A stretch of DNA of 64,000 bases from NCBI GenBank assembly GCA_028768545.1, contig CP054838.1:2777001-2841000 (forward strand), read 5' to 3'. This document shows, one piece after another, positions 1,011-34,368 of this stretch; within the stretch, counting starts at the first letter, position 1; every line of letters begins with the position of its first letter. Below the pieces are notes generated by a model. The model was given only the letters and a program-made list of their open reading frames with translations. It searched no databases and was not told where the DNA came from. Both the position numbers and the translations under genes were made by a program. The stretch is from Desulfobacter sp. (lineage in GTDB: Bacteria; Desulfobacterota; Desulfobacteria; Desulfobacterales; Desulfobacteraceae).

Positions 1011-1388
1011 GGCCCGGACAAAAAAAAGATTCAAGCCCTGGAAAAAAAAATGACGGATCTGGGTATTTTAAAGGCAGATATTCTGGAAAAGTTCATTCGG
1101 GCTTCGGGCAGGGGGGGGCAAAAAGTGAATAAGACTTCCAGTGCTGTCTTTTTAAGCCATGGACCCACTGGAATTTGCGTTAAGGTGGGCAAGCATCGTT
1201 CCCAGCATTTGAACCGGTTTTTAGCCTTGCGCGCCCTTGTGGAAAAAATTGAAGCCCTGAAAATCGGGGTCAGGGACAAAGAGGCTGCCAAAATTGCCAA
1301 GAAGAAAAAACAAAAGCTGAACAGGAAAAGAAAAACGCGTAAAAAGCTTTCCGCCACCCTTGAAAACTCGGGGATTAAACGTGGATGA
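963..1388 (+). CDS. Release-factor-like (RF-1 domain, GGQ) protein, 5' end replaced by IS sequence
   Basis: Small peptide-chain-release-factor homologue of the ArfB/YaeJ class, predicted to hydrolyse peptidyl-tRNA on ribosomes. The diagnostic GRGGQKVNKTSSAV segment holds the catalytic GGQ, and the C-terminal 45 residues are very rich in Lys and Arg, as expected for a ribosome-binding tail. The first 16 codons (963-1010) are IS4-element sequence; native sequence begins at GPDKKK. The original start codon is therefore lost, or lay at the junction. Translation could begin inside the IS at 963 or at the internal ATG at 1049, which still precedes the GGQ region. The 3' end overlaps the convergent DUF503 gene by 14 bases. 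Function is likely retained if either start works, but this is inference. Confidence 0.75.
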   Translation: MILDAFYMQQPNRTLLGPDKKKIQALEKKMTDLGILKADILEKFIRASGRGGQKVNKTSSAVFLSHGPTGICVKVGKHRSQHLNRFLALRALVEKIEALKIGVRDKEAAKIAKKKKQKLNRKRKTRKKLSATLENSGIKRG

Positions 1389-1662
1389 TTTCCATGGTTG
1401 TATCCGCAATATAGGCCAGGCCCATGTCATGGGCCATGTTGAAAATCTTGTCAATTTGACTGTTTATTTTCCTTGCATCTCTGCCTGCGATGGCAAATCC
1501 GATTTGGGCCCATTCCAGGCTGTCGTTAAGGTCTGTTTCGGCAATGGAAACATGAAAGGTGTTGGATATTCTTGCGATCATTGATTTAACAATCTTACGT
1601 TTTGCCTTGAGCGAGGATATGCCGAAAAGTTTGAGCTTTAGCTGTCCGGTTCCCACGACCAT
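1375..1662 (-). CDS. DUF503 family protein (YlxP-like)
   Basis: A 95-residue member of the DUF503/YlxP family. Family hallmarks are an N-terminal hydrophobic strand with the SSLKAKRKIVKS segment, then the NTFHVSIAETD strand and the WAQIGFAIAG segment. In many bacteria ylxP lies near rbfA and infB and is linked to ribosome or RNA work, but its biochemical role is not settled. The start is ATG at 1662. It is followed on the minus strand by the tail of the convergent release-factor-like gene, and preceded six bases upstream by the CQLG-repeat gene, so the two are probably co-transcribed. Confidence 0.85.
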   Translation of the reverse strand: MVVGTGQLKLKLFGISSLKAKRKIVKSMIARISNTFHVSIAETDLNDSLEWAQIGFAIAGRDARKINSQIDKIFNMAHDMGLAYIADTTMEIIHV

Positions 1663-1668
1663 GGGATC

Positions 1669-2100
1669 TTAGAATGCACCCAGTTGGCAGGGTTTTATCC
1701 TGATATCAAGTTTTTCACATGCAGAGCCCATGGCCAGTTTTGAAATCCCATGGGCTTTTGCAATATCCCAGCATTGGCGGCAGGATAACCGTGAGTTTTT
1801 CTGGGTATTAAAAATCGTGAGTTCAAGGGCTTTAGAGACGTTCACCTTTGGGTTGATCTTTTTTTTGTCCGGAAAATATCCAAATAGCCCCAGTTGGCAG
1901 TGGGCAATACAAAGTTCCATCAGGTCGGTTTGGATTCCGATTTGGGCAGGTGTCTGGCCCAGAACTTTGGCAAGTCTGTGGGCAGAGGCGCAAAAAAGCT
2001 GTCCTTGTTTGGCTGCCGCCTTAATTTCTTGTGCAATGGCAGGATCGATTTGCAGTCCTGGATGTTTTCGGGCGTAATGGCCTCTGTCCTCGTGTCCCAT
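1669..2100 (-). CDS. Conserved hypothetical protein with duplicated CQLG domain
   Basis: A 143-residue protein of unknown function. It contains two copies of a roughly 40-residue unit. Unit 1 spans about residues 33-73 (Cys37, then CQLGLF at 68-73). Unit 2 spans about 102-143 (Cys107, then CQLGAF at 138-143). In both units the first Cys and the Cys of CQLG are exactly 31 residues apart, and an (I/L)AK-x-x-G helix follows the first Cys. Four regularly spaced cysteines suggest metal or cluster binding, but no known ligand motif is recognised. A short Tyr/His/Lys/Arg-rich N-terminus precedes the repeats. It probably shares an operon with DUF503. It looks full length because the CQLGAF motif ends the protein. 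Confidence 0.7.
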   Translation of the reverse strand: MGHEDRGHYARKHPGLQIDPAIAQEIKAAAKQGQLFCASAHRLAKVLGQTPAQIGIQTDLMELCIAHCQLGLFGYFPDKKKINPKVNVSKALELTIFNTQKNSRLSCRQCWDIAKAHGISKLAMGSACEKLDIRIKPCQLGAF

Positions 2101-2187: not shown

Positions 2188-3039
2188 ATGATTGATGAAC
2201 TTGCCTCAAATAAATTTCAAATGATTTACATTGCCTCCTGCGGGGAGGGAATCAATGCGTTTCAACTGGTTGAATCTACTTTGGTTCAGTTTCCGGATTC
2301 AAATATTACCGTGGTCAAAATGCCCCAGATCAGAACCGAAAGTCAAGTGGACGAGCTCATTGACAGGGTTAAGGATATAGAAAGCCTCATCGTCCATACC
2401 ATTGTGGATTCAAAGCTTAGAAAATATCTCACCCGTAAGGGTATTGACAATCATATTGTGACCATTGATCTGATGGGGCCGATTCTGTCTAAGATTGAGA
2501 CCTTTTTAGACAGGCCTCCCCTTGAAACCCCCGGGCTTTACCGGGAAATTCATCATGTGGATTTAAAACAGGTTTCGGCCATTGATTTTGCCCTGGCCCA
2601 TGACGACGGGCTCAATCCCGAGAGCCTGGCCGATGCAGAGCTTGTCTTGGTCGGGCTTTCCAGGGCCGGTAAAACCCCTTTGTCCATGTACATGGGGGTG
2701 ATGGGGTGGAAGGTGGCCAATATCCCCTATGTGCCCGGGGTACCCATGCCCAAAACCCTTGATCAGGTGGACAGACGGCGGGTCATTGCCCTGAATATCA
2801 ATGTGGAGCAATTGCTTGCCCATAGAAAGATGCGCCAGGAAAGCCTGGGGACCAAAGACCTCTACGCCTATGCCGGAAAAGAGGATGTTAAAGCGGAAAT
2901 TCGTCATGCCCAAAAATATTATATCACCAAAGGCTTTTCCATGATCAATGTGAGCAATAAACCCATTGAGACCAGTGCCGAGGAAATTGCTGAAATGATA
3001 ACAAGACGATTCAAGGCGGATGCCCATTTTACAAATTAA
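2188..3039 (+). CDS. Pyruvate, phosphate dikinase regulatory protein (PDRP, DUF299)
   Basis: Bifunctional ADP-dependent kinase and Pi-dependent pyrophosphorylase that inactivates and reactivates pyruvate phosphate dikinase by Thr phosphorylation. The 283-residue length fits the family. The P-loop GLSRAGKTPLSMYM (around residue 155) and the following GWKVANIPYVPGVP segment are family signatures. The target enzyme, ppdK, lies 2.8 kb downstream on the opposite strand, which favours PPDK over PEP synthase as substrate. The start is ATG at 2188, preceded by a GAGGGGATAAAGGG stretch some way upstream. The gene stands alone and is followed by the palindromic repeat at 3048-3172. Confidence 0.92.
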   Translation: MIDELASNKFQMIYIASCGEGINAFQLVESTLVQFPDSNITVVKMPQIRTESQVDELIDRVKDIESLIVHTIVDSKLRKYLTRKGIDNHIVTIDLMGPILSKIETFLDRPPLETPGLYREIHHVDLKQVSAIDFALAHDDGLNPESLADAELVLVGLSRAGKTPLSMYMGVMGWKVANIPYVPGVPMPKTLDQVDRRRVIALNINVEQLLAHRKMRQESLGTKDLYAYAGKEDVKAEIRHAQKYYITKGFSMINVSNKPIETSAEEIAEMITRRFKADAHFTN

Positions 3040-5808: not shown

Positions 5809-8520
5809 TTAGGGATTGAGAATGGCTGCCTGGGAGGCTGCCAGTCGGGCGATGGGCACCCGGTAGGGTGAACAGGAGACATAGGTGAGTCCTGCCTTAT
5901 GGCAGAAGACCACAGAGTCCGGGTCTCCCCCGTGTTCGCCGCAAATGCCCAGCTTAATGTCGGGCCGGGTTTTTTTCCCGCCTTTCACAGCCGTGGTAAT
6001 CAAACTGCCCACAGCTTCCTGGTCCAGGGTTTCAAAGGGATCAGAGCTGAGAATGGCATTGTCAATATAATCGTTCATAAAGGATCCGATATCATCCCTT
6101 GAAAACCCGAATGTCATCTGGGTGAGGTCATTGGTGCCAAATGAGAAAAATTCGGCATATTCTGCCATTTTGTCTGCAATCAGGGCGGCTCTCGGGATTT
6201 CGATCATGGTTCCGAACATATGGGGCAAAGCGTCTATCTTGTACTTGGCAAGGGCCTGTTCATGGCATTGATCAACAATTTTTTTGGTAAAGGCCAGTTC
6301 TTTTTCATTGCAGGTCACCGGCACCATGATTTCAGGCTGGGGATTAAACCCATCCAAAATCAGTTCTGCACAGGCCTCAAAAATGGCTTTGACCTGCATA
6401 TGGGTGATTTCAGGATAGGTAATGCCAAGCCTGACCCCTCTGTGGCCGATCATGGGGTTGGATTCCATGAGCAGTTCACTTCTTTTGATCACCTCTTCAA
6501 TATCAATTCTAAGGGCAGCTGCAATTTCCTGTTGGTTCTGGGCATTCTGGGGTACAAATTCGTGGAGCGGAGGATCCAGAAGGCGCATGGTCACCGGCAT
6601 CTTATCCATTACTGAGAGGGTGGCGATGATTTCTTTTTTAACAAAGGGAAAAAGTTCTTCCAGGACTTGTTCTCTTTCATCCAAAGTCTTGCTTAAAATC
6701 ATTTTCCGCAGCAAAAACAAGGGCTGGTCAGAATCAGACCCGTAGAACATATGTTCTGTTCTGAACAGGCCGATCCCCTCTGCACCGAATTCAAGCGCAG
6801 TTTTAGCGTCAGCAGGGGTATCTGCATTGGTTCTGACTTTCATGGTTCGGTATTTGTCGGCAATGGCCATAAATTTTTGGAATTTAGGGTTTTCAGAGGC
6901 ATCCTTCATTTTAAGTTTGCCGTCGTAAACCACACCCTTGGTGCCGTTGAGGGTGAAATAATCCCCCTCTTTAAACAGGCGGGTGCCCACTTTCAGCTCT
7001 TTGGTTTCAAGATTGATTTTCAAGGCACCGGCGCCAACAATGCAGCATTTGCCCCAGCCCCTGGCCACAAGTGCGGCATGGGAGGTCATGCCGCCTCTGG
7101 CGGTGAGAATGGCAGCCGCCGCCCGCATGCCTTCAATATCTTCGGGGTTGGTTTCTTCCCTGACCAGGATGACTTTTTTGTCGGCTTTGGCCCATCGGAC
7201 AGCATCCTCCGAGGTAAAGACGATCTGCCCCCATGCGCCGCCAGGTCCTGCGGGCAGCCCTTCTGCAACATGCACAGCTGTGAGTTCTTCTCCCGGATCA
7301 ACAATGGGATGGAGCATGTCGTCTAAGATTTTCGGATCCAGGCGGCAGACCATGGTTTTTTCATCGATCATCCCCTGGTCAAGCATGTCCATGGCCATGT
7401 TCAAAGCGGCTGTGGCCGTTCTTTTTCCCACCCGGCATTGGAGCATGTAAAGACGGCCTTCCTGGATGGTGAACTCAATGTCCTGCATATCGCTATAGTG
7501 GGATTCCAGCCGGTTGCGAATCTCGAACAACTGGGCATAGAGGTCGGGCATGGCCTCTTCAAGTGAGGGCAGGTGCTGGTTCTGATTGTTTTTAGTGTCC
7601 GTGTTCAAGGGATTGGGCGTACGGATACCTGCCACCACATCTTCGCCCTGGGCATTGACCAGCCATTCACCGTAAAATTTATTATCTCCTGTGGCAGGGT
7701 CCCGAGAAAAGGCCACCCCTGTTGCAGAAGAGTTGCCCATGTTACCAAATACCATGGTCTGGACATTCACGGCTGTGCCCCAATTATCAGGAATGTGTTC
7801 AATTCGGCGGTAGGAGACGGCCCGTTTTCCGTTCCAGCTTTTAAAAACCGCGCCAATGGCGCCCATGAGCTGCTGGTGAGGATCATCCGGAAAATCCAAG
7901 TCCAGGTCTTCCTTGATTTTTTTTTTGAAGCGTTCACACAGGTTTTTCAAGTCATCCGTAGAAATATCTGTGTCATTTTCATAGCCTTTGTCATTCTTGA
8001 GATTGTTCATCATCATCTCAAGGTTGAGACGGATTCCCATCCCGTCCTTGGGGCGTATCTGTTCTGCCTTTTCCATAACCACGTCAGAATACATCATAAT
8101 CAGGCGGCGGTAGGCATCATAGACAAACCATTCATTTTGGGTCTTTTGGATGAGTCCGGGAATGGTAGCAGAGCATAACCCTACATTGAGAATGGTCTCC
8201 ATCATACCGGGCATGGAACTTCTGGCACCTGACCTGCACGAGACCAGAAGGGGGTTGGAAGGATCTCCGAATATCATCCCTGTCTGGGCCTCTATATGGG
8301 TCATGGTCTTGAGGGTATCCGCCTCTAAGTCTTTTGGAAAACTGCCCTTGAGTTCAAAGTAGTGGTTGCAGCATTCCGTGGAAATGGTAAAGCCCGGAGG
8401 AACAGGGAGGCCCAGCTTTGCCATTTCAGCCAGATTGGCGCCTTTCCCGCCGAGAAGGTCTTTTTGGCCGGCATCCCCATCTGTTTTTTCAGGACCGAAT
8501 TCATATATGTACTTGGTCAT
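5809..8520 (-). CDS. ppdK: Pyruvate, phosphate dikinase
   Basis: Interconverts pyruvate + ATP + Pi with PEP + AMP + PPi in the cytoplasm. In autotrophic or acetate-using sulfate reducers it usually makes PEP for gluconeogenesis. At 903 residues it has the normal length and order: an N-terminal ATP-grasp part (LLGGKGANLAEM, CRSGARSSMPGMM), a central phosphohistidine domain with catalytic His in GGMTSHAALVARG, and a C-terminal PEP/pyruvate barrel with GICGEHGGDP. GAGGA lies just upstream of the ATG at 8520. The PDRP gene nearby is its probable regulator. A candidate sigma-70 promoter lies at 8562-8590. Confidence 0.97.
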   Translation of the reverse strand: MTKYIYEFGPEKTDGDAGQKDLLGGKGANLAEMAKLGLPVPPGFTISTECCNHYFELKGSFPKDLEADTLKTMTHIEAQTGMIFGDPSNPLLVSCRSGARSSMPGMMETILNVGLCSATIPGLIQKTQNEWFVYDAYRRLIMMYSDVVMEKAEQIRPKDGMGIRLNLEMMMNNLKNDKGYENDTDISTDDLKNLCERFKKKIKEDLDLDFPDDPHQQLMGAIGAVFKSWNGKRAVSYRRIEHIPDNWGTAVNVQTMVFGNMGNSSATGVAFSRDPATGDNKFYGEWLVNAQGEDVVAGIRTPNPLNTDTKNNQNQHLPSLEEAMPDLYAQLFEIRNRLESHYSDMQDIEFTIQEGRLYMLQCRVGKRTATAALNMAMDMLDQGMIDEKTMVCRLDPKILDDMLHPIVDPGEELTAVHVAEGLPAGPGGAWGQIVFTSEDAVRWAKADKKVILVREETNPEDIEGMRAAAAILTARGGMTSHAALVARGWGKCCIVGAGALKINLETKELKVGTRLFKEGDYFTLNGTKGVVYDGKLKMKDASENPKFQKFMAIADKYRTMKVRTNADTPADAKTALEFGAEGIGLFRTEHMFYGSDSDQPLFLLRKMILSKTLDEREQVLEELFPFVKKEIIATLSVMDKMPVTMRLLDPPLHEFVPQNAQNQQEIAAALRIDIEEVIKRSELLMESNPMIGHRGVRLGITYPEITHMQVKAIFEACAELILDGFNPQPEIMVPVTCNEKELAFTKKIVDQCHEQALAKYKIDALPHMFGTMIEIPRAALIADKMAEYAEFFSFGTNDLTQMTFGFSRDDIGSFMNDYIDNAILSSDPFETLDQEAVGSLITTAVKGGKKTRPDIKLGICGEHGGDPDSVVFCHKAGLTYVSCSPYRVPIARLAASQAAILNP

Positions 8521-24822: not shown

Positions 24823-25140
24823 CTATACACAACCGGTAGGTTTGGGCAGACCGGCCATTTTACAGGCACCTTTACCAGGTCCTGAGGGGAACAATTCGTA
24901 GATGTGTTTCAGTTTGAACTTGGTCAGTTTAGAAAGAACACGTACCATGGGAGCAATACCATTTTTTTCGTAGTAGTCCTGAAGAACTTTAACCAGCTGC
25001 CAATGTTCGTCAGTCAACTCTTCGATACCTTCCTGGCCTTTTACATAATCAACCCATTCTTCGCAGTACAGGTTGTAGTCAAGCAGGAATCCGTCTTCAT
25101 CTATTTCAAAAGTTTTTCCGGTAAATTCGACTGTTGCCAT
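24823..25140 (-). CDS. dsrC: DsrC sulfur-carrier protein of dissimilatory sulfite reduction
   Basis: Cytoplasmic sulfur carrier that forms a trisulfide with DsrAB and passes it to DsrMKJOP in sulfate respiration. 105 residues, normal length. The C-terminal swinging arm GACKMAGLPKPTGCV carries both redox cysteines, Cys93 and the penultimate Cys104. Having both distinguishes true DsrC from TusE. WVDYVKGQEGIEELTDEHW also fits. AGGAGG lies nine bases upstream of the ATG, and a good sigma-70 promoter at 25247-25275 and a terminator make it a single-gene, probably highly expressed, transcript. Strong evidence for a sulfate reducer. Confidence 0.97.
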   Translation of the reverse strand: MATVEFTGKTFEIDEDGFLLDYNLYCEEWVDYVKGQEGIEELTDEHWQLVKVLQDYYEKNGIAPMVRVLSKLTKFKLKHIYELFPSGPGKGACKMAGLPKPTGCV

Positions 25141-33873: not shown

Positions 33874-34368
33874 TTATTCGTATTGGTTTAACACCTTTTT
33901 AATTTCGTCAGGCTTAATCCGGCCATGCATATCTTCATTGATTTTAATGACAGGGCCTAAACTGCAGCAGCCAATGCAACGAACAGACTCAAGGGTATAT
34001 CTTTGGTCTTCGGTGGTTCCACCATCTTTTATGTTAAGGGTTGACTCAATCTGTTCTTTGGCGCGTTCCGCCCCCCTGACATGGCAGGCAGTACCCGTAC
34101 AAATGGAGATGATATTGCGTCCCCTGGGTTCAAGACTGAAGGTTGAGTAAAAGGTAGAGACTTCGTAGATTCGGCTGTAAGGTATGGACAATTTTTGGGA
34201 TAAGTATAAGAGTGCTGGTTTGGGAAGGTAATTATAACGGCGCTGTATGGCTTGGAGAATCATAATTAAATTCTCTTTGTCCTCGTGAAAATCCGTTTCA
34301 ATTATCTGGTCTAGCTCCAGATAATCTATTTGCTCACCGCTGTCGTGCTGAGTACTTATTGTGCTCAT
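33874..34368 (-). CDS. NuoE/HndA-like 2Fe-2S subunit
   Basis: 164-residue thioredoxin-fold 2Fe-2S protein that partners NuoF-like subunits. The four cluster cysteines lie in CTGTACHVRGAE and VRCIGCCSLGPV, and KENLIMILQAIQRRYNYLP matches the N-terminal helical part. Length is typical. It is the second gene of the operon, 67 bases after the small selenoprotein gene, and electrons from the NuoF FMN would pass to it. Confidence 0.94.
   Translation of the reverse strand: MSTISTQHDSGEQIDYLELDQIIETDFHEDKENLIMILQAIQRRYNYLPKPALLYLSQKLSIPYSRIYEVSTFYSTFSLEPRGRNIISICTGTACHVRGAERAKEQIESTLNIKDGGTTEDQRYTLESVRCIGCCSLGPVIKINEDMHGRIKPDEIKKVLNQYE

Follow-up and report, generated by a model that had tools for sequence, protein, structure and literature searches.

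What kind of protein is built from two equally spaced pairs of cysteines, each pair closed by the motif CQLG-x-F, and what might these cysteines do? The question is raised by an open reading frame of Desulfobacter sp. located on the minus strand at positions 1669..2100 of the window (the whole stretch of 64,000 nucleotides analysed here), which starts with ATG and encodes 143 amino acids arranged as two tandem Cys...CQLG-x-F units. A first-pass annotation had regarded the product as an internally duplicated, symmetric metal-binding or redox protein that fits no nameable family and travels with DUF503.

Directly downstream of this doublet gene lies a DUF503 gene (1375..1662, minus strand; Pfam PF04456, E 9.6e-25), followed by an RF-1-domain gene on the plus strand. 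The divergent upstream gene (2188-3039, plus strand) belongs to the pyruvate,phosphate dikinase/PEP synthase regulator family, scoring above the cut-off of NF003742. A nearby ORF of 903 amino acids (5809-8520, minus strand) resembles, by eye, pyruvate phosphate dikinase, and the two may plausibly form a regulator/target pair. Elsewhere in the window, DsrC is matched at 24826-25125 and a NuoE-type 2Fe-2S thioredoxin-like protein at 33880-34296, both on the minus strand.

Next, we examined the internal repeat. As annotated, CQLG-x-F is found in both halves of the protein, as CQLGLF at residues 68-73 and as CQLGAF at residues 138-143. The two cysteine pairs, C37-C68 and C107-C138, are indeed equally spaced, the distance being 31 in each case; this leaves 30 residues in between and not the 31 originally given. 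Full-length doublets with a domain E-value under 1e-20 numbered 169, of which 120 were left after redundancy had been reduced at 85% identity. Across this non-redundant set, the overlap of the half-to-half profiles reaches 0.537 at an offset of 70, whereas the other 45 offsets average 0.189 (sd 0.022) and never exceed 0.256. Mean identity of the N- and C-terminal halves is 29%, and hhalign relates them to each other with a probability of 99.3% (E 1.4e-20). A profile made from single-unit proteins only gives two matches on the window protein, at a best E of 1.6e-13 in its genome, and hhalign places the single unit with the N-half at 99.7% and with the C-half at 99.5% probability. Sequence comparison thus gives strong support to an internal duplication, in which the doublet is composed of two homologous units of about 54 residues. 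The AK-x-x-G helix ascribed to both halves does occur twice in the window protein and is not a feature of the family as a whole (K45 38%, G48 32%, K115 36%, G118 35% in doublets), unlike its alanine, which is conserved in 83% (A44) and 99% (A114).

The unit also occurs alone, and the doublet can therefore be viewed as two copies of it. Single-unit homologues, which the first-pass annotation had recommended searching for, were found by profile searches of the phylum: many genomes carry short ORFs ending with CQLG(C/L)F or a close variant. We fetched 60 such loci (20 + 40, not thinned for likeness) and set aside three longer proteins described below, which left 57 single units with ORFs of 56-151 amino acids as called from the first possible start. 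All 57 possess C21 and C52, again at a spacing of 31, as well as F57, and in 56 the protein ends at most one residue after this final phenylalanine. The usual endings are CQLGCF and CQLGLF, with few variants such as CELGCF and CQIGCF. A third cysteine is present in 55 of the 57, located at position 56 in 49 and at position 24 in 14; eight proteins contain both and two contain neither. Most of the eight single units devoid of C56 (six) display C-x-x-C at the first cysteine, which hints at a needed third thiol, kinship being ignored in this count.

The three proteins set aside (L167, L168, L169) represent a second, divergent type of doublet, 154-165 amino acids long, with a different linker and with units ending CQLGCF or CQLGFF. 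A unit tree was made of 97 rows (31 N-halves, 31 C-halves, 29 single units and 6 units of this second type) over 54 columns, which leave many of its forks open. Its five groups need only 4 changes, and single units stand beside N-halves in a poorly resolved arrangement. The second unit of L167-L169 is placed beside the C-halves (with L184_C, 98/89) and the first on the side of the N-halves and single units. A separate second duplication in these proteins, first suggested by the profile halves that the individual units hit, was given up, one ancient duplication being compatible with this tree.

Cysteine conservation is complete. C37 (codon 1990..1992), C68 (1897..1899), C107 (1780..1782) and C138 (1687..1689), all encoded on the minus strand, are invariant in 120/120 doublets, together with G74, Q139, G141 and F143; four invariant cysteines are a criterion used for Fe-S or zinc proteins with four cysteine ligands. 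Homologues lacking the cysteines, which the first-pass annotation had named as evidence against its view, did not appear either among these doublets, with four cysteines each, or among the 57 single-unit loci, with two each, both sets having been collected by similarity to cysteine-bearing sequences. In a smaller alignment (49 homologues including the query) the same four cysteines are present in 49/49, C110 in 31/49 and C64 in the query alone. A fifth cysteine, C128 (codon 1717..1719, minus strand), is situated in helix a3 of unit 2, is 96% conserved and has no counterpart in unit 1. W111 (99%) and H13 (97%) are also well conserved among the 120 doublets. The duplication, the single-unit relatives and the invariant cysteine pair of each unit are firm.

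Covariation of H41 and C110 was considered as a sign of a metal ligand shared between units. The raw counts are striking (H41 is present in 51 of 52 proteins with C110, p 7e-11, and the pair ranks among the 30 strongest by mutual information). We rejected this candidate, since the tree leaves 1 independent pair on supported branches.

The AF2 model of the doublet (120 rows) has a pLDDT of 94.8 and a pTM of 0.86. Its unit 1 (residues 20-73; 1882..2043, minus strand) consists of H20-29, E34-36, H37-47, H51-60 and E64-66 followed by CQLGLF, and the same order returns in unit 2 (residues 90-143; 1672..1833, minus strand) as H90-99, E104-105, H107-117, H121-130 and E134-135, with CQLGAF closing the protein. 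Profile comparisons agree with this division. The model of a single unit (17 rows; pLDDT 84.4, pTM 0.61) retains the order of elements. Each unit is thus predicted to adopt a small winged-helix-like fold, a1-b1-a2-a3-b2, and the pTM of the doublet suggests that the two predicted units are held as one rigid pair. In the model, the first cysteine of each unit starts helix a2, zero to one residue past b1 (C37 follows b1 immediately), and the second lies two (C68) or three (C138) residues past b2. From this topology we infer that b1 and b2 run parallel, which would bring the two cysteines of a unit together.

Although the three-helix HTH core is predicted with high confidence, its matches among solved structures are weak. 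Foldseek found none at E <= 0.001 in PDB, where its list is headed by the DUX4 double homeodomain (E 0.077), and a BFVD fold search gave no match at the same threshold. The best VIA-align matches were the C-terminal domain of L11, the N-terminal domain of NuoE/FdsG, FapR/NiaR and homeodomains, all with Z <= 6.1, and may reflect only a common arrangement. Both models align best with the L11 domain, in one case with 2j28 chain I (Z 5.6, 48 residues, rmsd 2.0) and in the other with 1y39 chain B (Z 6.1, 50 residues, rmsd 2.2), both of them chains of ribosomal protein L11. However, no profile relation to 12 L11 sequences was detected (hhalign probability 0.2%), and the two L11 sequences compared lack the cysteine pair. 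The helical N-terminal domain of NuoE/FdsG (5lnk chain 2, Z 5.7 over 51 residues) also shares a short similar stretch around helix a2 of the unit, but hhalign against 20 sequences gave probabilities of 2.2% for the unit, 14.9% for the N-half and 1.2% for the C-half, so that profile similarity was not found; the Fe-S cysteines of NuoE presumably sit in its other domain. Winged-helix and HTH domains such as FapR, NiaR and homeodomains resemble our family in the predicted three-helix core with short strands and in some conserved basic positions, whereas the invariant cysteine pair, CQLG-x-F and the acidic or amide positions inside a3 set it apart.

Searches of sequence libraries bear out that the protein belongs to no family that can be named. 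For the window protein, Pfam yields nothing at E <= 1, and NCBIfam, PHROGs and PDB sequences yield no convincing match. We judged spurious the PDB sequence matches to acyl-CoA oxidase (E 0.44), archease (E 1.5) and TetR (E 0.087), as well as those in NCBIfam, for example a nucleotidyltransferase at E 0.047. Among its relatives there are weak Pfam matches to DUF7645, in 11 of 30 homologues (lowest E 5.3e-5) and in 2 of 17 single units (0.049), and to Arg_tRNA_synt_N, in 4 of the 30 homologues (lowest E 8.4e-5). Literature searches for CQLGCF or DUF7645, or under Desulfovibrio/FdhE-type terms, returned no paper. The family is without a name in the libraries searched, though its fold is of a common kind.

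At the same time, the family is widespread. Of the 389 genomes sampled from the class, 316 have a homologue (match at E <= 0.01), as have 180 of the 201 good ones. Across the phylum, the single-unit profile picks up the unit, whether alone or doubled, in 142 of 297 sampled genomes (weakest E 0.0014), and the doublet profile matched in 141 of the 297. Among the matches listed, 69 genomes contain the doublet; another 73 have unit ORFs of other kinds only, the 154-165-aa type being counted with these. At least 8 of the 69 doublet genomes bear an extra unit ORF (G008, G456, G458, G483, G518, G574, G591, G604); doublets and other unit ORFs are thus mostly found in different genomes. Scanning GTDB contigs with the doublet profile yielded at least 564 relatives among 587 candidates, and the best 80 of these come mostly from contigs titled Desulfobacterales or 'Deltaproteobacteria', with few Pseudomonadota and one Actinomycetota. 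The last (L127) carries a homologue at 43% identity and is perhaps a mislabelled metagenome bin. The same scan with the window protein alone confirmed 0 of 67 stretches. No relative was found in plasmids and phages with one single unit as the query, nor did viral contigs match the single-unit profile.

Genomic neighbours were then compared, genes being called as longest ORFs and grouped into clusters by BLAST. The proposed link with DUF503 holds locally and fails in general. A DUF503 cluster is next downstream in at least 29 of the 125 loci of L001-L130 with a gene called there, a set that comes largely from the window's own and closely related families and in which long or divergent ORFs may be missed. 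It is next downstream in 0 of 19 loci at L031 and L033-L050, 18 of which come from other families and one (L046) from the window's own. Because adjacency is only local, we reject DUF503 as a general functional partner; it is a separate protein encoded by the adjacent gene in the window. Other neighbours of doublets include an AMP-binding (PaaK-like) ligase and ACT pair, GcpE and ADP-forming acyl-CoA synthetase, an ACT gene being directly upstream of the doublet in 10 of 128 loci.

At the unit loci, the next gene downstream encodes a radical SAM protein in 17 of 60 cases, and a gene for a BadF-type CoA activase is present in 15. At L151, L155, L157, L159, L164-L166 and others, the single-unit gene, the radical SAM gene (17/60) and a BadF/DUF2229-type activase gene (15 of those 17) form an operon-like arrangement. 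The library comparison of neighbours covered one activase and two of the radical SAM proteins, both of which resemble MoaA only remotely (54 and 39 bits, with a cut-off of 284). A gene cluster present at 8 of the 60 unit loci includes, at L160, an Mrp-like Fe-S carrier gene that scores 376 bits on MrpORP, short of the cut-off of 450. A few unit loci have formate dehydrogenase or molybdenum cofactor genes as neighbours (FdhE-like and MoeA at L153, FdhD at L154 and L158). CstA, LTXXQ, nitroreductase, metallo-beta-lactamase fold, SDR and DNA polymerase A genes were also encountered. No fixed partner gene was found, the top neighbour cluster being that of the 17/60 unit loci.

Co-occurrence in genomes was compared as well. 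Of the 142 genomes that have the unit, 109 also encode FdhD, compared with 85 of the 155 that lack it (odds ratio 2.7, p 9e-5, kinship ignored). PF09989 (CoA activase) is too widespread (230 of 297 genomes) to be informative. For DsrC no co-occurrence was seen (70 of 142 genomes with the unit, 85 of 155 without it; counts 70/72/85/70, p 0.35), and a role in dissimilatory sulfur metabolism was rejected, DsrC not being associated.

How, then, might such a protein work? Two minimal winged-helix-like units fused head to tail would give one fixed pseudo-dimer. In each unit, b1 and b2 would place the pair of invariant cysteines next to each other, and the doublet would in this way offer four or more thiols, as would, by analogy, a homodimer of single units of about 57 residues. 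These thiols would most likely bind a metal or an Fe-S cluster, the conserved CQLG-x-F being part of the site, and the protein would act as a redox or cofactor-handling accessory and not as a catalytic enzyme. A covalent pseudo-dimer with a metal or Fe-S site is favoured because of the invariant thiol pairs and the predicted rigid pseudo-dimer, and we hold it tentatively as the best reading, with somewhat less than an even chance. Some of the neighbours encode metal-cofactor functions (FdhE-like, MoeA, FdhD, Mrp-like, radical SAM, CoA activase), nearly all single units have a third cysteine, doublets and other unit ORFs mostly keep to different genomes, and FdhD is commoner in genomes with the unit (kinship ignored), all of which speaks for this reading; the contexts vary widely and the H41-C110 covariation was lost once the tree was considered, which speaks against it. 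From the annotated symmetric metal-binding or redox protein, the internal duplication has thus been borne out by sequence, and the metal or redox role is plausible.

The same conserved features may be read in other ways. Weak Pfam matches point to DNA-binding HTH families: HTH_36 is hit by 4 of 17 single units (E down to 6.9e-5) and HTH_11 by 2 of 30 doublets (E down to 7e-4). The window protein itself matches no HTH family at E <= 1, and the single unit L151 has 12.4 bits where HTH_36 requires 25. Together with the predicted HTH-like fold, whose nearest solved relatives include homeodomains, FapR and NiaR, and with DUX4 at the head of the Foldseek list, the weak matches would suit a redox- or metal-sensing regulator, whose units bind DNA or RNA while the cysteines switch binding. 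Basic positions are kept (K/R121 in 99% and K/R134 in 100% of doublets, K/R18 and K/R48 in 57/57 single units), so nucleic-acid binding is possible, and the pI of 9.4 and net charge of +9 of the window protein agree with it and tell against a metal or Fe-S site. The mean pI of the family is, however, only 7.9 for doublets and 7.8 for single units, and inside a3 it is acidic or amide residues that are conserved best (D59 97%, E129 93%; in the 57 single units N43 in 47 and D43 in 10). As all fold matches are weak and a fold match shows no function, we consider such a regulator somewhat doubtful.

A terminal cysteine motif, which ends the window doublet and nearly all single units, would rather suggest a thiol or persulfide carrier, in which the CQLG-x-F cysteine passes sulfane sulfur or electrons and its paired cysteine resolves, in the manner of DsrC/TusE or FdhD. 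The FdhD and FdhE-like neighbours at a few loci fit this explanation. DsrC/TusE resembles the family in its small size, its HTH and its conserved C-terminal cysteine. But CQLG-x-F is internal in unit 1 of doublets, DsrC does not co-occur with the unit, and PF04358 is absent for the window protein and from the best 25 of 31 families for 30 homologues; a carrier therefore appears unlikely. Invariant cysteines and varied gene contexts would also suit a structural zinc site in a small, general protein-protein adaptor without redox role. No partner is evident, though, and only two or three such cysteines are present in 49 of 57 single units and four in 8, so that most of them would have to dimerise to build a tetrahedral site; this explanation we find quite improbable.

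Returning to the metal or Fe-S site, the family might constitute a new class of small proteins in which two winged-helix units, fused or homodimeric, hold one interface cluster via the paired Cys-(30)-CQLG-x-F and serve assembly of, or electron supply to, oxygen-sensitive cofactors (formate dehydrogenase, radical SAM, CoA-activase) across Desulfobacterota-type anaerobes. In this full form the proposal is doubtful. The fold and the placement of the units are predicted, and the function is not firm. A protein that occurs in such a large share of the genomes of the class, has four fixed cysteines in all doublets aligned and is covered by no model of the curated libraries searched is likely to be important in these bacteria. 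The natural single-unit form should be easily expressed, reconstituted and solved, and the metal-binding or redox role of the family could therefore be settled quickly.
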